A stretch of DNA of 64,000 nt from Xanthomonas cissicola (GTDB taxonomy: Bacteria > Pseudomonadota > Gammaproteobacteria > Xanthomonadales > Xanthomonadaceae), in contig NZ_VZPL01000003.1 of NCBI RefSeq assembly GCF_008801575.1, positions 1-64,000 on the forward strand, in the 5' to 3' direction. The position numbers and the translations under genes are program-made. The stretch's first letter is position 1. Each line of letters begins with the position of its first letter. Shown in pieces: positions 45,917-61,675 of this stretch. The notes beneath the pieces are model-generated. The model ran no database searches. It was given only the letters and a program-made list of their open reading frames with translations, and was not told the DNA's origin.

Positions 45917-47809
45917 ATGCCGACGAACTACTCACGAGCCCAAGTGCTCGACATCATCGAACGCGAAGCGGCCGAGCGGAATATTCCGCGTGACGACTTC
46001 CTGCGTTTTGCCCACGTAGAGACTGGCGGCGCCTTCGACGAGTTGGCCAGCCGCGGCCCCGGTGGTGCGAAAGGACTGTTCCAGTTCACTCCGCCAACCG
46101 CCCAGCAGTACGGCATTGCCGGACGCGAACTGGACGCGGTGGTCAACACCGACGCAGCAGCGCGGCTGTATCTGGATAACCGGACGAGCCTGGTCAATCG
46201 GCACGAACGCGATGGGCGGCCCTACCTGTCGGGCAAGCCGGAGCCCGATGGCCTGGATATGTACCTGGCCCATCAGCAAGGCGCCGGTGGCTACCGCTCT
46301 CTGCAGACCGCGATCGCCACGGGATCTTTTGGCCTGGAAAGCACACGCGCCAATATTCTCAACAATGTCGGCGAGAAAGAGCTGAAGTCGTTGACCGGCG
46401 TGGATTCGGCAACGTTCCGGCGCATGTCCGACAAGGATATGGCACAGACGTTTGTGCAGTACTGGGATACGAAGATGGACCGTATCCGTATTCCCGAAAA
46501 AGGCATCGAGCCCATTTCGGCCACGCAGCAGGCACCGTCGCACGCTGCGCCAGCGCATTCCGCGCCTGCCCAGCCGGAGAAACCCGCAGCGCAAGGCATC
46601 GCGCTTCACGCGGCCTACGACCTCACCAATAAATACGACCACGTCAAATACGGCCTGGGCGCGAAAGATCCCGACAAAGGCAGGGTCGATTGTTCGGGCT
46701 GGGTGGTCGAGATGCAGAACGCGACCATGGATGAGATCAACAAGGGCGCCGGCAAGGCCATCTTCACCAAGGACGAAAAGTTCAGCCCTGGTTTCGACAG
46801 CGCGTCCGAACTGCTGCGCAAGGCCGAGCTGCGCTCCGGCGTGCTGATCCAAGGCAAGGACGTGACTGCCCAGAGCCTCAAAGAAGGCATGATCATCGGC
46901 GAGGACAATGGCCCGCAGAGTTGGGACAAGGGGCGTTACAAGGGCATCGACCACATCACGATGGTGGTGCGCGACCCCAAGGATGGCCAGCTCAAGATCA
47001 GCCAATCCCGTGGCGGCGAGGGTGTTGAGCTCAGCTCGCTGGATTTCTACCTTGAGCGCAAGCACGCCAAGGGCGTCAAGCTGTATGCGAGCGACCCGCT
47101 GTCTGAGGCGCGCGACCTGCTGCAGGAGCGCAGCCAGAACAAGCAGCAATCCCACCCAGCGTCCGAGCACAAACCCAGCCAGGCACACGCCGCCGCGGAT
47201 GCGCCGAGTGTCCTGCGCGAAAATGCGCGTGGTGCAGAAGTGCGCACCTTGCAGCAGACGCTGCAGCAACTGGGCTACAAGGACGCAGCCGGCAACGAAC
47301 TCAAGGCTGACGGTGCCTATGGCCAACGGACCAGCGACGCGGTCAAGGCATTCCAGCGTGCGCATGGGCTGCAGGACGATGGCGTGGTTGGCCGCGATAC
47401 GCAGGCTGCGCTGAAGCAGGCGGAAAAGACGCCACTGCTCTCGGAGAAAACCAACCCCGACCACCCGCTGTTCAATCAGGCCCTCAACAAGCTGGAACAG
47501 CTCGGCCCCAATGCCTTCGCCAATCGGCAGCAGCTGGTAAATGCAGCCGGCCACATGACCTTCGAAGCCAAGGTCAGCGGCATGCAACGCATCGACATGG
47601 TGGCGCAAAGCAAGGATGGCAACGGACTGTTTGCCGTGCAGGGTCAGCCAACCGACCCGGCGCATCAGCGGATCTACACCGAAAAGGCAACCGCTGCGGA
47701 ACGTCCGCTGGAGCAAAGCAGCAATGCGGTGCGGCAGGATGCGCAAACGCAAACGCAGGTCCAAGATCAGCACGAGCAACAACGTAGCCAGACGCGCAGC
47801 GTCGGTTGA
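45917..47809 (+). CDS. Type IV secretion antibacterial effector (X-Tfe) with peptidoglycan hydrolase domains
   Basis: This 630-residue protein has no signal peptide. Four parts are visible. A lysozyme-like lytic transglycosylase domain (~20-190) has catalytic Glu35 in HVETGGAFD and GAKGLFQFTPPTAQQYG. An NlpC/P60-like peptidase domain (~226-395) has candidate Cys259 in RVDCSGWV and His346 in GIDHITMVV. A PG_binding_1 domain spans ~431-500 (ARGAEVRTLQQTLQQLGY). The C-terminal region (~511-630) has NPDHPLFNQA, SGMQRIDMVAQS, LFAVQG and a Gln-rich tail, the hallmarks of the XVIPCD domain that docks effectors to VirD4 of the Xanthomonas T4SS. It probably kills competing bacteria by cutting peptidoglycan. 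AAGGACC lies before the ATG. Confidence 0.88.
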   Translation: MPTNYSRAQVLDIIEREAAERNIPRDDFLRFAHVETGGAFDELASRGPGGAKGLFQFTPPTAQQYGIAGRELDAVVNTDAAARLYLDNRTSLVNRHERDGRPYLSGKPEPDGLDMYLAHQQGAGGYRSLQTAIATGSFGLESTRANILNNVGEKELKSLTGVDSATFRRMSDKDMAQTFVQYWDTKMDRIRIPEKGIEPISATQQAPSHAAPAHSAPAQPEKPAAQGIALHAAYDLTNKYDHVKYGLGAKDPDKGRVDCSGWVVEMQNATMDEINKGAGKAIFTKDEKFSPGFDSASELLRKAELRSGVLIQGKDVTAQSLKEGMIIGEDNGPQSWDKGRYKGIDHITMVVRDPKDGQLKISQSRGGEGVELSSLDFYLERKHAKGVKLYASDPLSEARDLLQERSQNKQQSHPASEHKPSQAHAAADAPSVLRENARGAEVRTLQQTLQQLGYKDAAGNELKADGAYGQRTSDAVKAFQRAHGLQDDGVVGRDTQAALKQAEKTPLLSEKTNPDHPLFNQALNKLEQLGPNAFANRQQLVNAAGHMTFEAKVSGMQRIDMVAQSKDGNGLFAVQGQPTDPAHQRIYTEKATAAERPLEQSSNAVRQDAQTQTQVQDQHEQQRSQTRSVG

Positions 47810-50264: not shown

Positions 50265-52094
<1,830 letters not shown>

Positions 52095-52117
52095 AAGACA
52101 GCTCTCGCAAAAGAAGT

Positions 52118-52205
52118 CGGACATTTTAGCGTGTCCGCTCTTGTCCGCTGCATGACCGTGCCCGGACAGCGTGTCCGCCACCAGTGTCCGCGGACACTGC
52201 GGACA
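52118..52205. promoter_or_regulatory. Cluster of eight TGTCCG/CGGACA half-sites (candidate upstream activator sites)
   Basis: TGTCCG occurs at 52132, 52142, 52172 and 52185; CGGACA at 52118, 52163, 52191 and 52200. Three inverted pairs are visible, including the perfect palindrome AGTGTCCGCGGACACT (52184-52199). The cluster ends about 45 bp upstream of the sigma-54 promoter at 52252, the normal zone for enhancer-binding proteins, and the operon it faces encodes an NtrC-family regulator. It also lies directly upstream of glmS. Confidence 0.75.
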
Positions 52206-52251
52206 CTGGCCATCACGCCATAAAATCCATCTCTTTCAATGAGTTGAGCGT

Positions 52252-52267
52252 TGGCACAGGTCCTGCT
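52252..52267 (+). promoter_or_regulatory. Sigma-54 (-24/-12) promoter of the ABC efflux/two-component operon
   Basis: TGGCACAGGTCCTGCT matches the RpoN consensus TGGCACGnnnnTTGCW except at two positions, and has the exact GG-N10-GC spacing (GG 52253-52254, GC 52265-52266). Transcription would start about 20 bases before the ATG at 52300. Confidence 0.75.
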
Positions 52268-52299
52268 TTATTGCAGTGACGCCACCGAGCCAGCCGATC

Positions 52300-53571
52300 A
52301 TGATTCGCGATACCTCCGCCCAGGACCAGGTTCTCCGTACACCCGCCCAGCGCGCACCGTGGCGCCGTTGGCTGTGGCCCGGTATCGCCACGGTGGCGGT
52401 GCTGGCCGGCATCGGCTGGGCCGTGACTGCGTGGAGCGCCGGCAGCCGCTCGTTCGACGCCAGCCGCGTGCGCATCGCCACCGTCACCCAGGGCGACCTG
52501 GTGCGCGACATCGCCGCCGACGGCCGCGTGATCGCTGCCAACAGCCCGGTGCTGTACGCCATCTCGGCCGGCACGGTGACGCTGAGCGTGGTGGCTGGCG
52601 ACGTGGTCAAGCAGGGCCAGGAACTGGCGCGCATCGACAGCCCCGAGTTGCGCAGCAAGCTCGCGCAGGAGCAGGCCACCCTGGCGGGCCTGGAAGCCGA
52701 ATCCAGCCGCGCGGCCCTGGATGCCACCCTGGCGCGTGCCAACGCCAGCAAGCTCACCGACCAGGCCCAGATCGACAAGCAGGCCGCCGCGCGCGACCTG
52801 GAGCGCTACCAGCGCGGCTTTGACGGCGGCGCCGTGCCGCAGGTGGAACTGGCCAAGGCGCAGGACACCTTGAAGAAGACCGATATCGACCTGCAGCATG
52901 CCCAGCGCGATGCCGCGTTGAAGAGCCAGGGCGCGGACCTGGATTCGCGCAACAAGCGCCTGCTGGCGGACCGCCAACGCGCTGTGGTGGCCGAAGTGCA
53001 GCGCCAGGTGGACGCGCTCACGCTGCGCTCGCCCTTCGATGGTCAGGTCGGCCAGGTGCAGGCCGTGCAGCACACCCAGGTCGCTGCGAACGCGCCGATT
53101 CTGGGCGTGGTGGATCTGTCCAAGTTCGAAGTGGAGATCAAGGTGCCGGAGAGTTTCGCGCGCGATCTGGCGATCGGCATGCCGGCCCAGCTCACCAGCG
53201 GCAGCGGCGAACCGTTCGCGGGCGCCGTCTCGGCGGTGTCGCCGGAAGTGGTCAACGGCGAAGTCACTGCGCGCATCCGCTTCACCGACAAGCAGCCGCC
53301 GGGCCTGCGCCAGAGCCAGCGCATGAGCGCACGCGTGCTGATGGATACGCGCCGCAACGTGCTCAAGGTCGAACGCGGCCCGTTCCTCGAACAATCCGGC
53401 GGCAGCTATGCCTATGTGATGGATGGCAACACGGCGGTGCGCCGCCCCGTGCGCATGGGCGTCAGCAGCCTGGGCGAAGTGCAGGTGCTCTCCGGGCTAC
53501 AGGTCGGCGACCGCGTGGTGGTCTCCGGCGCAGACAACTTTGGCGACGCGCCGCGCGTCACCGTCCACTGA
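52300..53571 (+). CDS. Periplasmic adaptor (MacA/HlyD family) of an ABC efflux system
   Basis: This 423-residue membrane-fusion protein has a short cytoplasmic N-terminus, one transmembrane helix (~22-44; WPGIATVAVLAGIGWAVTAW), a lipoyl/barrel-sandwich half-motif (IAADGRVIAANSPVLYAISAGTVTLSVV), and a coiled-coil hairpin (~95-235). The second lipoyl half (TLRSPFDGQVGQVQAVQHTQV) and the beta-barrel and membrane-proximal domains follow. It would link the inner-membrane permeases to an outer-membrane channel. ATG at 52300 is preferred over a GTG at 52276. It is the first gene of a seven-gene unit behind a sigma-54 promoter. Confidence 0.88.
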   Translation: MIRDTSAQDQVLRTPAQRAPWRRWLWPGIATVAVLAGIGWAVTAWSAGSRSFDASRVRIATVTQGDLVRDIAADGRVIAANSPVLYAISAGTVTLSVVAGDVVKQGQELARIDSPELRSKLAQEQATLAGLEAESSRAALDATLARANASKLTDQAQIDKQAAARDLERYQRGFDGGAVPQVELAKAQDTLKKTDIDLQHAQRDAALKSQGADLDSRNKRLLADRQRAVVAEVQRQVDALTLRSPFDGQVGQVQAVQHTQVAANAPILGVVDLSKFEVEIKVPESFARDLAIGMPAQLTSGSGEPFAGAVSAVSPEVVNGEVTARIRFTDKQPPGLRQSQRMSARVLMDTRRNVLKVERGPFLEQSGGSYAYVMDGNTAVRRPVRMGVSSLGEVQVLSGLQVGDRVVVSGADNFGDAPRVTVH

Positions 53572-53619
53572 TTCGATCGTTCCCACTCGTCGCACACTCT
53601 CTTCGCAAAGGAATCGGCA

Positions 53620-54339
<720 letters not shown>

Positions 54340-54350
54340 GGAGCCCACCC

Positions 54351-55652
54351 ATGTTCGGCTACTACTTTCATCTTGCGGTGCGCAGCTTCCGCCGCAACAA
54401 GGTACTCACCGCATTGATGGTGCTGGCCATTGCGCTGGGCATCGGCGCCAGCATGACCACCTTGACGGTGTTCTATGTGTTGTCGGGCGACCCGATCCCG
54501 CAGAAGAGTGATCGGTTGTTCAATGTATTGGTCGACCCGCAGCCGAAGGCCGGTTTTCAGCCAGGCGAAGAACCGGACGATCAAGTGACCCGCTTCGATG
54601 CCGAGGCATTGCTGCGTGAGAAACGCGGCAAGCGACAGGCCATGATGACCGGCGGCAACCTGGCGATCGAACCGGAAAAGAGCGGGCTGAGCGCCTTCAA
54701 GTCGGAAGCGCGCTACACCTCGGCCGATTTCTTTCCGATGTTCGAGCCGCCCTTCCTGTATGGACAGGCTTGGTCGCACAACAGCGACGACCGCCACGAA
54801 CGTGTCGTGGTCATTACCAGGACGCTCAACGACAAACTGTTCGACGGCGGCAACAGCGTGGGCCGCGAACTACGCTTGAACAAGAACACCTTCCGCATCG
54901 TCGGCGTGCTCGACGCCTGGCAGGTCAATCCGCGCTTCTACGACCTCACCGACAGCTACGGCTCCGACGAACAGCTCTATCTGCCTTTCTCGGCGGCGAT
55001 GGATCTGAAGATGGATCACTACGGCAGCACCAACTGCTTCGGCGAAGTCGAAACCGGCGATACCACCGCGCTCAACGCGCCCTGCACCTGGGTGCAGTAC
55101 TGGGTGGAGCTAGACAGTGCCTCGCAGGTCGGCGACTACAAGGCCTATCTGGATAACTACTCCAACCAGCAACGCGCCGCCGGACGCTTCGAACGCCCCA
55201 ACAACGTCCGCCTGCGCAACGTGATGGAATGGCTGGACCACAACAAGGTGGTGCCGAGCGACGTGCGCCTGCAGCTCTGGCTGGCGATGGGCTTCCTGCT
55301 GGTCTGCCTGCTCAATACCGTGGGCCTGTTGCTGGCGAAGTTCCTGCGCCGCAGCGGCGAGATTGGCGTACGCCGCGCCCTGGGCGCATCGCGCGGTGCC
55401 ATCTTCGCGCAATGCCTGGTGGAAGCCGGGACGGTGGGGTTAGCCGGCGGCATCGCCGGACTGGGACTGGCGTGGCTGGGACTGTGGGCGGTCCGCCAGC
55501 AGCCGGTGCCCTACGCCAAGCTCGCTCATCTGGATCCGAAGATGCTGCTGCTGACATTCGTGCTGGCGCTGGTCGCCAGCGTCCTGGCCGGCCTGCTGCC
55601 ATCGTGGCGCGCCATCCAGGTCGCACCGGCGCTGCAGCTCAAATCGTCCTGA
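54351..55652 (+). CDS. ABC transporter permease, FtsX/MacB family (1)
   Basis: This 433-residue inner-membrane permease has the MacB layout: an N-terminal helix (NKVLTALMVLAIALGIGASMTTLTVFYVLSG), a large periplasmic domain (~45-300, including the core region with Cys residues in STNCFGEVETGDTTALNAPCTW), and three C-terminal helices with the FtsX signature RRSGEIGVRRALGASRGAI. The ATPase is a separate gene, unlike classical MacB. Likely substrate classes are peptides, lipoproteins or antibiotics; nothing in the sequence decides. Confidence 0.9.
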   Translation: MFGYYFHLAVRSFRRNKVLTALMVLAIALGIGASMTTLTVFYVLSGDPIPQKSDRLFNVLVDPQPKAGFQPGEEPDDQVTRFDAEALLREKRGKRQAMMTGGNLAIEPEKSGLSAFKSEARYTSADFFPMFEPPFLYGQAWSHNSDDRHERVVVITRTLNDKLFDGGNSVGRELRLNKNTFRIVGVLDAWQVNPRFYDLTDSYGSDEQLYLPFSAAMDLKMDHYGSTNCFGEVETGDTTALNAPCTWVQYWVELDSASQVGDYKAYLDNYSNQQRAAGRFERPNNVRLRNVMEWLDHNKVVPSDVRLQLWLAMGFLLVCLLNTVGLLLAKFLRRSGEIGVRRALGASRGAIFAQCLVEAGTVGLAGGIAGLGLAWLGLWAVRQQPVPYAKLAHLDPKMLLLTFVLALVASVLAGLLPSWRAIQVAPALQLKSS

Positions 55653-55707
55653 CCCTCACGCCCGCCGCGGCGCGGCGGGCACGGTCCCTCATCGAAGGTT
55701 ATTGCCC

Positions 55708-56934
55708 ATGGACATCCGTCCTATCGTTTCCACGCTGCGCCGCCACAAGACGGCATCGGCACTGATCGTGCTCGAGATCGCCCTGGCCTGCGCGATCGTT
55801 TGCAACGCGCTGTTTCTGATCGGCAACCGCATCGAGACCTTGCAGCGCATCAGCGGCCTCGCCGAATCGGAACTGGTCAGCATCCGCCTGGGCGGCATCG
55901 GCACCCAGGTCAACGCCGATGCGCGCACCCGCGAGGATCTGGCGGCACTGCGCGGCATTCCCGGCGTGCGCGGCGCGATCATCACCAACCAGGTTCCTTT
56001 CGTGAACTCCTCCTCCAACACCGGCCTGACGTTGACCCCGGATCAGGAGCGTTCCACCCTCAATGCCGCGCAATATCTGGTCAGCGAAGGCGCCGTGGGC
56101 ATCATGGGGTTGCAGCTGGTGGCCGGGCGCGATTTCAACAAGGACGAATACATCAGCCTGGAGACGGCGGACAACGACAAGAGCGTGCGCGCGAAGGGAT
56201 CGTCACTCATCGTCACCCAGGCGACGGCGGACAAACTGTTTCCCGATCACAGCGCGCTGGGCAAGACCGTGTATTCGGGCGATATCCCGCTGCGCATTGT
56301 CGGCATCGTGCAGACCCTGGTGCGCCCCAACAATGTCAACGGCATCGACAAGATTAATTATTCGATGCTGCTGCCGATCCGCGCACCCTACACCGATGGC
56401 CAGTACCTGCTACGCGTCGGCGACCCGGCGCAGCGGCAGGAAGTCCTGCAAGCGGCGGTGAGCGCGCTGATGAAGCTGGACAGCAGCCGACTGGTGCTGA
56501 AACAGGAAACCTACTCCGAGATCCGCGACAAGTACTTCCGCAACGACCGCGCGATGATCTGGTTGCTGGGCGCGGTCTGTGTCGCGCTGCTGGTGGTCAC
56601 CGCGCTGGGCATCGTGGGCCTGGCCAGCTTCTGGGTGCAGCAGCGCACCAAGCAGATCGGCATCCGCCGCGCGCTGGGCGCCACCCGCGGGCAGATCCTG
56701 CGCTACTTCCAGATCGAGAATTTCCTGCTCGCCTCGCTCGGCATCGTGCTCGGCATGCTGATGGCGTACTCGATCAACGTGTGGTTGATGGCGCGCTACG
56801 AACTGCCGCGCCTGCCGGCAGTCTACCTGCCGATCGGTGCGGTGCTGCTGTGGGCGCTAGGCCAGCTGGCGGTGTTCTGGCCGGCACGCCGCGCCGCCGC
56901 TGTGCCGCCGGCGGTCGCCACCCGCAGCGCATAG
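55708..56934 (+). CDS. ABC transporter permease, FtsX/MacB family (2)
   Basis: This 408-residue permease has the same architecture as the preceding gene: N-terminal helix (SALIVLEIALACAIVCNALFLIG), periplasmic domain and three C-terminal helices with RTKQIGIRRALGATRGQILRYF. The two permeases differ strongly in their periplasmic parts, so they probably form a heterodimer. ATG at 55708 is chosen over a TTG two codons earlier; GAAGG lies upstream. A GC-rich inverted repeat (CGCCGCGGCGCGGCG-like) lies between the two permease genes without a T-tract. Confidence 0.9.
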   Translation: MDIRPIVSTLRRHKTASALIVLEIALACAIVCNALFLIGNRIETLQRISGLAESELVSIRLGGIGTQVNADARTREDLAALRGIPGVRGAIITNQVPFVNSSSNTGLTLTPDQERSTLNAAQYLVSEGAVGIMGLQLVAGRDFNKDEYISLETADNDKSVRAKGSSLIVTQATADKLFPDHSALGKTVYSGDIPLRIVGIVQTLVRPNNVNGIDKINYSMLLPIRAPYTDGQYLLRVGDPAQRQEVLQAAVSALMKLDSSRLVLKQETYSEIRDKYFRNDRAMIWLLGAVCVALLVVTALGIVGLASFWVQQRTKQIGIRRALGATRGQILRYFQIENFLLASLGIVLGMLMAYSINVWLMARYELPRLPAVYLPIGAVLLWALGQLAVFWPARRAAAVPPAVATRSA

Positions 56935-56982
56935 GCAGGCAAACGCATTATCGCCATCGACAAACTTCCTGGACCACCATCG

Positions 56983-57468
56983 ATGAAGAACAACCGAGCC
57001 CTTCTGTTCGCCGCCCTGTCCCTGCTCTCCCTGCCGGCCCTGGCCGAGACACCGGTCACCGCTGCCGATCTCCAAGCCACCATCGCCACCCTGGACCAGG
57101 AGGTCTTCGACAGCTTCAACCGCTGCGCCGACCCGGCGCAGCTGGAAAAGCATGCCAGCTATTTCGATCCGCACGTCGAGTTCTATCACGACACCGGCGG
57201 GGTTACATGGAACCGCGAGGACATGCTGGCAAACACCCGCAAGTACGCGTGCGGGCACTACACCCGAGAATTGATCCCCGGCAGCCTGAAGGTCTACCCG
57301 GTTCGGGATTTCGGCGCGATCGCGCAAGGCCAGCACCGCTTCTGCGATCGGGCGACCGGCAAGTGCGAAGGCGCGGCCGACTTCCTGATGATCTGGCACC
57401 TGCATTAGGGGCAGTGGATCATTACCCGCGTACTGAGCTACGCCCACCGCGCCGTAGCGGGCAGCTAG
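56983..57468 (+). pseudogene. Secreted NTF2-like (DUF4440) protein interrupted by an in-frame amber codon
   Basis: The start codes for a signal peptide (RALLFAALSLLSLPALAE) and an NTF2-like fold: ADLQATIATLDQEVFDSFNRCADPAQLEKHASYF, HVEFYHDTGGVTWNRED and the GAIAQGQHRF strand. At 57406-57408 a TAG follows MIWHLH. The same frame then continues GQWIITRVLSYAHRAVAGS and stops at 57466-57468. Family members end with a strand of exactly this type (W-x-ITRVxSYxH), so the last strand is coded after the stop. The protein made without readthrough is 141 residues. It lies within the efflux/two-component operon, so polarity or loss of a periplasmic accessory function is possible. Confidence 0.8.
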
Positions 57469-57503
57469 CCGCTACGATGGCATCCCATCCAACCTGATCC
57501 GCC

Positions 57504-58843
<1,340 letters not shown>

Positions 58844-58847
<4 letters not shown>

Positions 58848-60202
58848 ACTTTCGTATGCGGAGCCGCTCTTTCACGTTTGCGCTGTTTTTACGCTTGCTG
58901 CCGGTGCTCGCGCTGGCAGCTGCATTGCCGTGGTTCATGGCGTACTGGCTGGACCGCGGCTGGCAGGTGGCGGCGATTTCGGTCGTCGTGCTGCTGGCGG
59001 CGATGTGGTTCAGCCTCACCCGCGCCACCGCGCCGATGCGCTCGCTGTTTCGTGCGCTGGCGGGCACCACCAGCAGCTACCGCGATGGCGAGTACAACTT
59101 CGGCGTGTATTGGCGCTGCAACGACGAACTGGCGCAACTGGTGCAGGCGCATGCCGAGCTTGGCGATGTGCTGCGTGCGCAGCGTAGCCATCTTGTGCAG
59201 CGCGAGCTGATGCTCGACACCATGCTGCAGAACACGCCGGTGGCCATGCTGCTGGTGGTCGCCGGCGGCGATGGCCTGCGGCGGATCGGGTTTTCCAACA
59301 ACGCCGCACGCAAACTGCTGTATGAGGGGCGCAAGCTGGAAGGCCAGCATCTGGACGATGTGCTCGGCCGCATGCCGGCCGAATTGCGCGACGCATTGGC
59401 ACGCGGCGGGGACTGCCTGTTCGCGGTACGCGAAGATGGCGACGACGAAGAAGACGAGCAGATCTATCACCTGTCGCGGCGTAGCTTTCACATCAACGGG
59501 CGCGGACACGAGCTGTTGTTGATCCGCACCTTGACCACCGAGTTGCGCCGCCAGGAAGTGCAGACCTGGAAGAAAGTCATCCGCGTGATCAGCCACGAAT
59601 TGAACAATTCGCTGGCACCGATCGCCTCGCTGGCGCATTCGGGTGCCGAGCTCCTGCGCCGCGAACGCACCGATCGCCTGGGGACGGTGTTCGAGACCAT
59701 CGAAGAGCGCGCGCGTCACCTGGAAGGCTTTATCCGCGGCTATGCGCGCTTTGCCAAATTGCCGCAACCGCAGCTGCAGACCATCGAATGGGCGCCGTTT
59801 CTGCAACGCTTGCAGCAACAGATTCCGTTCAAGGTGCAGGGCACGCTCACCGATGTCTCCAGCCGGATCGATGCAGCGCAGATCGAACAGGCGCTGCTCA
59901 ATCTGCTGAAAAATGCCCACGAGGCCTGCAGCGAAGCGCAGCCACCCAACAGCGACGTGGCGCTGCGGGTCACGCGCGTACCCCAATGGCTACGCATCGA
60001 GGTGCTCGACCGTGGTAATGGCATGAACGAAGCGGTACTGCACAACGCGCTGATGCCCTTCTATTCGACCAAGCGCAATGGCACAGGTCTTGGCCTTGCG
60101 CTCACCCGCGAGATCGCCGAAGCGCACGGCGGCCGCATCTCGCTGCATAACCGCGAACAGGGCGGACTGTGCGTGACCTTGCTGTTGCCATTGGCGGCTT
60201 GA
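58844..60202 (+). CDS. Membrane sensor histidine kinase
   Basis: This 452-residue kinase has two N-terminal transmembrane helices (~13-57; FLRLLPVLALAAALPWFMAYW and VAAISVVVLLAAMWF) with a very short periplasmic loop, a PAS-like region (~120-225; MLDTMLQNTPVAMLLVV), the H box VISHELNNSLAP (His251), the N box ALLNLLKNAHEA and the G boxes NGTGLGLAL. The NtrB-like H box fits pairing with the NtrC-type regulator just upstream. The short loop suggests that it senses the membrane or its partner transporter rather than a periplasmic ligand. It is the last gene of the operon. Confidence 0.94.
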
Positions 60203-60304
60203 ACACACCGCATTACTCAGGCAACACGCTCCGCGTATTCATGCCGCTGGCTGCGATGCGCACGCACGGCGCAGACTGCACCGCGCAGTGAACAGTCGCA
60301 GCCG

Positions 60305-61675
60305 CTACGGCGATTTCTTGGTCGGCCGCTTCCAGCCTTCGACCACGGTCTGCCGCGCACGCGTCACACTGAGCTGACCCGCAGGCGCATCGCTCGTGAT
60401 CACCGAGCCGGCACCGATGGTGGAATTGGCGCCAATCTCGATCGGTGCCACCAATGCGCTATTGGAGCCGACAAAGGCGCCATCGCCGATGGTAGTCTGC
60501 GACTTGTTCACCCCGTCGTAGTTGCAGGTGATGGTGCCGGCACCGATGTTGACCTTGCTGCCGATCACCGCATCGCCCAGATAGGTCAGATGGTTGGCCT
60601 TGCTGCCGACGCCCATGGTGACCTTTTTGGTTTCCACGAAATTGCCGATATGCACGCCATCGGCCAGCACGGTGCCGGGGCGCAGGCGCGCGAATGGGCC
60701 GATCTGCACCGCGCCCTCGGTGATCACGCCTTCCAGATCGCTGTGCGCACGCACCTGGGTGCCGGCACCGAGCGTGACGTCACGCAAGCGCACGAACGGG
60801 CCGATCACCACGTCATCGCCCAGGGTCACATTGCCTTCCAGGATCACATCGATATCCAGCTGCACATCGCGGCCCACCTGCACGCTGCCACGCTGCTCCA
60901 CACGCGCTGGGTCGGCCATGCGCACGCCCTGCAGGCAAAGCGTGCGCGCGGCGCGCAGCTGCCAGGCACGCTCAAGCTGGGCGAGTTGCCACGGGTCGTT
61001 GGCACCCTCCACGTCCTGCGGGTCGGCCACATGCACCATGTCGGCCGGCGTGAAATCGGCAGCGGCGCTGGCGAACACGTCGGTGAGATAGAACTCGCCT
61101 TGCGCATTGTCGTTGGACAAGCCAGCCAGCCAACGGCGCAGTGCGGTGGATTCAGCGGTGAGGATGCCGGTATTGATGGTGCGAATGCGGCGCTGCTCGT
61201 CATTGGCATCCTTCTGCTCGACGATGGCGGCCACCTTGCCCTCCGCATCGCGCAGGATGCGTCCATAGCCGGTGGGATTGGCCAGTTCGGCGACCAGCAC
61301 CGCCATGCGGCCCGGCGCATGCAGCAGCTGCAGCAGGCTCTCGCTGCGGATCAACGGCACATCGCCATACAACACCAGCACGGTTGCCGCATCGGGAATC
61401 GCGGGCATTGCCTGCTGCACGGCATGTCCGGTGCCCAACTGCTCGCGCTGTTCGGCCCACTGCAGATCGCCTTGATCGGCGAAGGCTGCCTGCACCTGAT
61501 CGCCGACATGCCCGTATACGATATGGATCGCCGCCGGCTGCAGCTGCCGCGCAGTGGCGATCACATGCGCCAGCATCGGCTGGCCCGCCAGCGGCTGCAG
61601 CACCTTGGGCAGCGAGGAGCGCATGCGCTTGCCTTCGCCCGCGGCCAGGATCACAACGTGCAGGGGCAGGGTCAT
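60305..61675 (-). CDS. glmU: Bifunctional UDP-GlcNAc pyrophosphorylase / GlcN-1-P acetyltransferase
   Basis: This 456-residue enzyme has an N-terminal uridyltransferase domain ([35 protein letters not shown]) and a C-terminal left-handed beta-helix acetyltransferase ([37 protein letters not shown]). Together they convert glucosamine-1-P to UDP-GlcNAc, completing the pathway begun by GlmS. The ATG at 61675 ([13 protein letters not shown]) is the family start; the open frame runs further upstream without similarity. It lies on the same strand as atpC but is separated from it by other genes. Confidence 0.97.

Follow-up and report, generated by a model that had tools for sequence, protein, structure and literature searches.

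A candidate sigma-54-dependent, autoregulated control region of a MacB-type exporter operon in Xanthomonas cissicola

A stretch of 64,000 nucleotides of the Xanthomonas cissicola genome (positions 1 to 64,000 of contig NZ_VZPL01000003.1, hereafter the window) carries an operon that encodes a MacAB-type exporter together with an NtrC-type response regulator and a histidine kinase. The 205 base pairs (bp) between the first codon of the divergent gene glmS (52094, minus strand) and the start of the gene for the exporter's adaptor (52300) comprise a dense array of TGTCCG half-sites and an element resembling the -24/-12 promoters of sigma-54 (RpoN). We propose, with a probability of about 0.78, that this region (52118-52267) controls an exporter module that depends on sigma-54 and is under positive autoregulation. 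The comparative evidence favours the arrangement put forward in a preliminary description of the same DNA, namely a sigma-54 promoter and an enhancer array through which the operon's own NtrC-type regulator would control its own synthesis.

The array consists, as the preliminary description had it, of eight half-sites, TGTCCG or its complement CGGACA, all of which are free of mismatches: 52118(-), 52132(+), 52142(+), 52163(-), 52172(+), 52185(+), 52191(-) and 52200(-). Its core is TGTCCG-N7-TGTCCGCGGACA-N3-CGGACA (52172-52205), and the central palindrome TGTCCGCGGACA is found at one place only in the 5.35 Mb genome. In the window as a whole TGTCCG is only mildly raised (51 copies vs 40.5 expected, a total reached by 4 of 100 shuffles). 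The clustering of the half-sites is beyond chance: eight fall within 88 bp here, compared with a maximum of three when the window was resampled 200 times under a first-order Markov model (the highest count per 88 bp being two in 163 resamples, one in 27 and three in 10), and none of the unrelated hexamers in the window clusters above five. Downstream of the array, TTGGCACAGGTCCTGCT has GG at 52253-52254, ten bases and GC at 52265-52266, the exact GG-N10-GC spacing already pointed out for an RpoN promoter, with consensus-like flanks and two departures from the consensus TGGCACG-N4-TTGCW; transcription is predicted to start at about 52277. The genome itself contains two RpoN matches and nine sigma-54 activators.

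Conservation was followed in a close set of 81 loci (the window and 80 others), nearly all from Xanthomonas, Stenotrophomonas or Pseudoxanthomonas, in which loci of close species are not independent and the nearest have adaptors 94-98% identical. The element TGGCAC-N6-TGC is retained in 80 of the 81 loci and exact TGTCCGCGGACA in 76; of the 79 loci measurable for both, 77 have a distance of 58-62 bp between the centre of the palindrome and the GG. The core TGTCCG-N6/7-TGTCCGCGGACA-N2/3-CGGACA is conserved in an alignment of 27 of the 81 loci, and the best-conserved half-sites are those closest to the sigma-54 element. When all loci were scored with one script, which accepts a slightly looser sigma-54 element with at least three half-sites within 170 bp before it (half-sites being counted in this and the other locus comparisons as exact pentamers GTCCG/CGGAC), the adaptor gene was preceded by both features in 80/80 close loci. 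This near-fixed distance to a conserved element makes it extremely improbable that a structural or mobile element (a terminator, a REP-like (repetitive extragenic palindromic) sequence or a recombination site) accounts for the repeats and lies by chance before a sigma-54-like sequence. The palindromes could indeed form hairpins, and one weak terminator-like match lies on the minus strand at 52118-52137, but such matches in the region are fewer than in shuffled sequence (2 vs 5.5), and the genome has only a single copy of TGTCCGCGGACA. A scan of the region found no terminator-like match on the coding strand of the operon, in which the regulator gene lies downstream of the array and promoter. 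One record of the close set (L059), titled Bacillus subtilis, carries a Stenotrophomonas-like locus and is probably mislabelled or contaminated.

Outside the close set, too, the array goes with the exporter-regulator module. At an E-value of 1e-80, a cut that also admits paralogues of 40-49% identity, 200 of 299 genomes from the order contain relatives of the regulator; at 1e-120 only 8 of 369 genomes from the class do, five of these within the order. From 61 further loci, the 41 with an adaptor match and at least 250 bp upstream were kept and 20 were dropped. Exporter genes are found near the regulator in 37 of 40 loci of a first batch and 19 of 21 of a second, the exceptions being L115 and L118 together with L135, L142 and L143, all three of the latter truncated by a contig end. 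The recognition helix of the regulator has the form SRQ..YRR in 34 of the 41 loci, and a sigma-54 element with at least three half-sites accompanies it in 30 of these 34 vs 2 of the 7 loci with other helices. In a control, at least three half-sites, the sigma-54 element not being required, occurred in 63 of 5099 windows of 170 bp elsewhere in the loci, some of which may contain true sites. In locus L150, the DNA preceding the sigma-54 site at 2717 (reverse-complement coordinate) has CGAACA/TTCG repeats in place of CGGACA; its regulator, with the helix SRS..YRR, may read this shifted code.

Since the array doubles as the 5' region of glmS, a match to which is present in 80/80 close loci, and has a conserved -10-like element inside it, it could be chiefly an operator over the glmS promoter, with only a secondary effect on the exporter. 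A scan of the region with the sigma-70 consensus gave no site. This explanation is very unlikely, because arrays persist in loci without a visible glmS nearby and in front of adaptors of only 40-50% identity, and one occurs in a locus of another order (L136), which speaks also against an accidental origin; moreover, the half-sites nearest the sigma-54 element are the ones best kept, and a similar array precedes the unlinked gene of a secreted-looking protein described below. The overlap with the probable glmS promoter means, nevertheless, that binding of the regulator may affect glmS in this family. The exporter operon lies between glmU and glmS (50265-61675) on the strand opposite to both and splits a glmU-glmS gene order that we take to be that of other bacteria, so that glmS would need a promoter of its own inside the array.

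Judging from a second promoter of the same design, the regulon probably extends beyond the operon. The pattern TTGGCAYN6TGCW has thirty sites in the X. cissicola genome (17 + 13 by strand, vs 5 + 3 for a reversed control), only two of which have at least three half-sites within 200 bp upstream: that of the exporter operon, with eight, and G000:C24:42640-42656, with five, which is unlinked to the operon and precedes a gene for a 153-amino-acid repeat protein. This candidate regulon gene with its promoter region spans G000:C24:42035-42740 (L157, L178, L188) and is followed by a gene that we assume to be trmL-like. The protein has a signal peptide, as read by eye, and the repeats TLETVQVHPAADQ / TLAAVQVRPSAEQ / TLAAVQVRPSAEQ, and scores 212 bits against the NCBIfam XAC0231 family (NF052303; cut-off 140), a family name that was not found in the literature searched; of two homologues compared with this model, one is over the cut-off (169) and one below (74). 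Among 149 genomes of the bacterial family, 31 have homologues of this protein, and 27 of 30 homologue loci have a sigma-54 element with 3-6 half-sites upstream, L198, L214 and L215 lacking an element by the pattern. All 24 homologue-positive genomes that were also searched for the regulator have it, a co-occurrence that says little because nearly all genomes of the family do. From these sequence patterns we consider it most likely that the regulator turns on its own gene, the exporter and this secreted partner.

Other targets are more variable. Among 20 hand-picked stretches upstream of trmL-like genes, eight have the element with at least four half-sites, one has two half-sites, one (L275, from genome G160, in which the regulator was not found) has one, and ten have no element; as these ten all come from regulator-bearing genomes, the trmL slot is not a universal target. 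Apart from XAC0231-type proteins, some of these slots encode very different small peptides of 63-82 amino acids with a hydrophobic N-terminus. Seven small peptides of this kind stand under the sigma-54/TGTCCG design (L253, L254, L261, L263, L282, L283, L284), with an MKFE-, MNFE- or MNHE-type start; five end near C.LPPDG.VCP and five lie just before a trmL-like gene. A biased set of 20 loci from the order, chosen by eye for a good palindrome among the matches listed, included six exporter operons, four small MKFE-type peptides and two proteins ending in WQ..PG..K, with eight loci unassigned. Two secreted-looking proteins behind half-site clusters (L262, L265) have in common the C-terminus WQSLVPGAIK / WQAFLPGMLK. 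A search of the genome for TGTCCG pairs, as suggested in the preliminary description, gave 15 places vs 32 in the reversed control, so that pairs alone are uninformative. The X. cissicola genome has a second dense cluster, of five TGTCCG half-sites in about 100 bp (G000:C85; L093 1473-1574); it precedes a gene pair that presumably resembles an AbrB-like/PIN-like toxin-antitoxin pair, the script detected no sigma-54 element near it, and it was dropped as a regulon target.

Several observations weigh against the proposed control of the operon by its own regulator. The sigma-54 match by itself is at chance level (six matches with at most two mismatches in the window vs 19 expected), so the case rests on conservation, and a looser pattern scanned across the order is no commoner than its reversed control (4 vs 6 in the X. 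cissicola genome). Only 8 of the 20 surveyed trmL slots show the promoter design. GAFTGA is the usual loop by which NtrC-type regulators contact sigma-54; the regulator studied here has GAYTGA, as do most of the orthologues displayed, GAFTGA being present in few. Four of the 34 loci with the SRQ helix lack the element or three half-sites, L141 has no recognisable element, and helix type goes together with descent, which leaves the correlation of helix and motif suggestive but weak as proof. Spacing and orientation of the half-sites are irregular outside the core, beyond which no fixed geometry emerged when one was sought across loci, so that the binding unit of the regulator is not fixed. Finally, a near-full regulator gene lies within the fetched stretch in 62 of the 80 close loci and is missing there in 18, so that the compact operon is not universal. 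In three of the 18 the contig ends early (L034, L042, L049), and L002, L022 and L024 have a partial or missing match beside the end of the stretch or an incomplete neighbour; the other twelve have no visible regulator within 9 kb after the adaptor. These twelve (L027, L029, L030, L031, L035, L038, L039, L044, L045, L046, L060 and L063) retain array and exporter, and in most of them permease 2 is unusually distant from the adaptor, as if genes had been inserted, so the regulator may lie further on.

Together with the irregular half-sites and the presence of nine activators in the genome, these twelve loci are what one would expect if the protein bound to the array were a different one, be it a repressor of the classical kind or one of the other sigma-54 activators, with the linked regulator acting elsewhere. 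We consider this unlikely, since the array stays with the exporter-regulator module in divergent surroundings and is associated with the SRQ helix, and since SRQALYRR is unique to this regulator among the seven activators of the genome whose C-terminus was read.

The operon (Table 1) comprises, with short gaps, genes for an adaptor, an ATPase, two MacB/FtsX permeases, a DUF4440-like protein, the regulator and the kinase; the DUF4440-like protein is not a constant part, as tblastn matched it in only 12 of the 80 close loci. In the preliminary description this was called an efflux/two-component operon coding for its own NtrC-type activator and kinase. Model matches confirm the activator: PF00072, PF00158 and PF02954 are all over the gathering cut-off in the regulator, which classifies it as NtrC-type. 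The exporter is likewise of the MacAB type, with MacB_PCD and FtsX in both permeases, ABC_tran, and RND_mfp/HlyD in the adaptor over their cut-offs. E. coli MacB is a fused ATPase-permease polypeptide, and here the ATPase and the two permeases are encoded by separate genes. The term "efflux" is uncertain, because a Sec-secreted peptide has been argued to leave the periplasm through MacB-type pumps as well (accessible part of PMC5985334). By hydropathy the kinase has two transmembrane helices separated by a 12-residue loop, and most orthologues displayed have two such segments with a loop of about 12 residues or fewer, which leaves little room for a periplasmic ligand domain; in six Rhodanobacter-type loci the loop has about 20-40 residues. 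Elsewhere in the window, 45917-47809 encodes a 630-amino-acid protein with lysozyme- and peptidoglycan-binding-like parts, the C-terminal region of which is reminiscent of the XVIPCD signal that Xanthomonas effectors of type IV secretion carry.

Table 1. Features in and around the proposed control region (window coordinates).
Feature	Position	Strand	Basis
Enhancer array (putative), eight exact TGTCCG/CGGACA half-sites	52118..52205	none	direct count, clustering, alignment
Central perfect palindrome TGTCCGCGGACA	52185..52196	none	single genome copy, conservation
Candidate sigma-54 (-24/-12) promoter TTGGCACAGGTCCTGCT	52251..52267	+	sequence match, conservation
MacA-like periplasmic adaptor	52300..53571	+	TIGR01730 over cut-off
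MacB/LolD-type ATPase	53620..54339	+	best model darobactin-exporter ATPase, under its cut-off
MacB/FtsX-type permease 1	54351..55652	+	MacB_PCD and FtsX over cut-off
MacB/FtsX-type permease 2	55708..56934	+	MacB_PCD and FtsX over cut-off
DUF4440-like protein	56983..57408	+	just under Pfam cut-off
NtrC-type response regulator	57504..58847	+	receiver, sigma-54 AAA+ (GAYTGA), Fis-type helix-turn-helix with SRQALYRR
Histidine kinase	58844..60202	+	ATPase domain over cut-off, HisKA just below
glmS, divergent neighbour	50265..52094	-	TIGR01135, E 8.9e-259
Putative -10-like element TAAAAT of glmS, upstream edge of array	52123..52128	-	inferred from alignment conservation
glmU, beyond the far end of the operon	60305..61675	-	

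The following mechanism would accommodate these observations. The kinase, with two transmembrane helices and no visible periplasmic sensor domain, would respond to the state of the membrane or of the exporter and phosphorylate the regulator. The regulator is predicted, from conservation, to bind the TGTCCG cluster through its SRQALYRR helix, and its AAA+ domain, as in other members of its family, would then contact RpoN polymerase at 52251-52267 and open the promoter, so that more exporter, regulator and kinase would be made. The conserved promoter design suggests that the regulator also activates the unlinked XAC0231-family gene next to the trmL-like gene, the product of which could serve the exporter as cargo picked up in the periplasm or could be its partner in that compartment. 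The first of these roles fits the proposal that MacB takes the Sec-exported peptide STII from the periplasm (accessible part of PMC5985334).

The repeats of this protein resemble TonB boxes. The genome has 67 Plug-domain matches, indicative of TonB-dependent receptors, of which 30 receptor loci were viewed, and a profile was built from 22 boxes identified by eye in receptors of this genome. The scores of the three repeats were reached by just 2 of 41,356 background positions taken from the window's own open frames, a background that includes receptor genes, so that these two positions may themselves be genuine boxes. Scores are similar in four other homologues and lower in a sixth, whose repeats are of another type; in an alignment of 29 homologues it is the repeats that are conserved. 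The likeness is weakened by the match of just one of four repeat proteins at a strict threshold, by trailing residues RP in the repeats vs TG in TonB boxes, and by the failure to find such a motif in six small peptides of other genera. A doubtful possibility is that the module serves an envelope defence of the "close the gate and pump out" kind, in which the kinase would read the state of the exporter and the regulator would switch on the exporter and a periplasmic protein with three or four TonB-box-like repeats; the repeats would occupy TonB and block uptake by the receptors, while the exporter cleared entrants. If the repeats do bind TonB, this would be an undescribed way of throttling TonB-dependent uptake.

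The components are of known kinds, namely sigma-54, NtrC-type regulators and MacB exporters. NtrC, ZraR and the PEP-CTERM response regulator share with the present regulator a receiver, a sigma-54 AAA+ domain, a Fis-type helix-turn-helix and an adjacent kinase, and inverted half-sites upstream of a -24/-12 promoter are likewise common to NtrC-family systems and this one. The system described here differs from those named in the GAYTGA loop, the TGTCCG motif and a promoter heading an exporter operon, and its regulator is below the cut-off of the best 25 of 88 NCBIfam models matched (top model ntrC, 340 bits vs 559). An adaptor, a MacB/FtsX permease and an ATPase are common to MacAB-TolC, the darobactin exporter DarCDE and this exporter, which differs in its separate ATPase, two separate permeases and own sigma-54 two-component system and scores below the cut-offs of the DarC/DarD and MacA/MacB models. 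The kinases of BceAB-BceRS modules of Gram-positive bacteria have a transmembrane hairpin, a short external loop and no sensor domain, a topology that is matched here by hydropathy, and their regulator is OmpR-type. The regulator in X. cissicola, on the contrary, is NtrC-type with RpoN, the permeases are MacB-type with an adaptor, and contact between kinase and exporter is putative. In Bce modules a permease of the MacB superfamily signals to its kinase (accessible part of PMC5985334), which by analogy would be the obvious precedent for a kinase sensing the state of the exporter.

A general link of sigma-54 to MacB/COG0577 permeases was published in 2025 (PMC12316311); in the accessible part of that paper neither an enhancer motif nor a regulator is named, nor is any Xanthomonadales operon or secreted partner. 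An NtrC-family regulator is also known from the same genus, namely XibR of Xanthomonas campestris, a 433-amino-acid orphan with GAFTGA that binds iron (accessible part of PMC5130282); as the regulator described here has 447 amino acids, GAYTGA and its own kinase, XibR was ruled out by size, loop and lack of a kinase. The accessible parts of RpoN papers on X. campestris and Xylella do not name this operon, and a paper on copper stress mentions a macAB homologue in X. campestris, the identity of which with this operon could not be told from the accessible text. The literature searched, which was covered in part and without supplements, yielded nothing on the TGTCCG enhancer, on this regulator or on a connection with XAC0231-family genes.

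Under the proposed reading, an anonymous intergenic region leads to a regulon that can be tested throughout the order and that combines a defined DNA code with a candidate regulator, an exporter and a secreted-looking protein as yet unstudied. Should the repeat protein be the cargo, a MacB-type pump would gain a native substrate.
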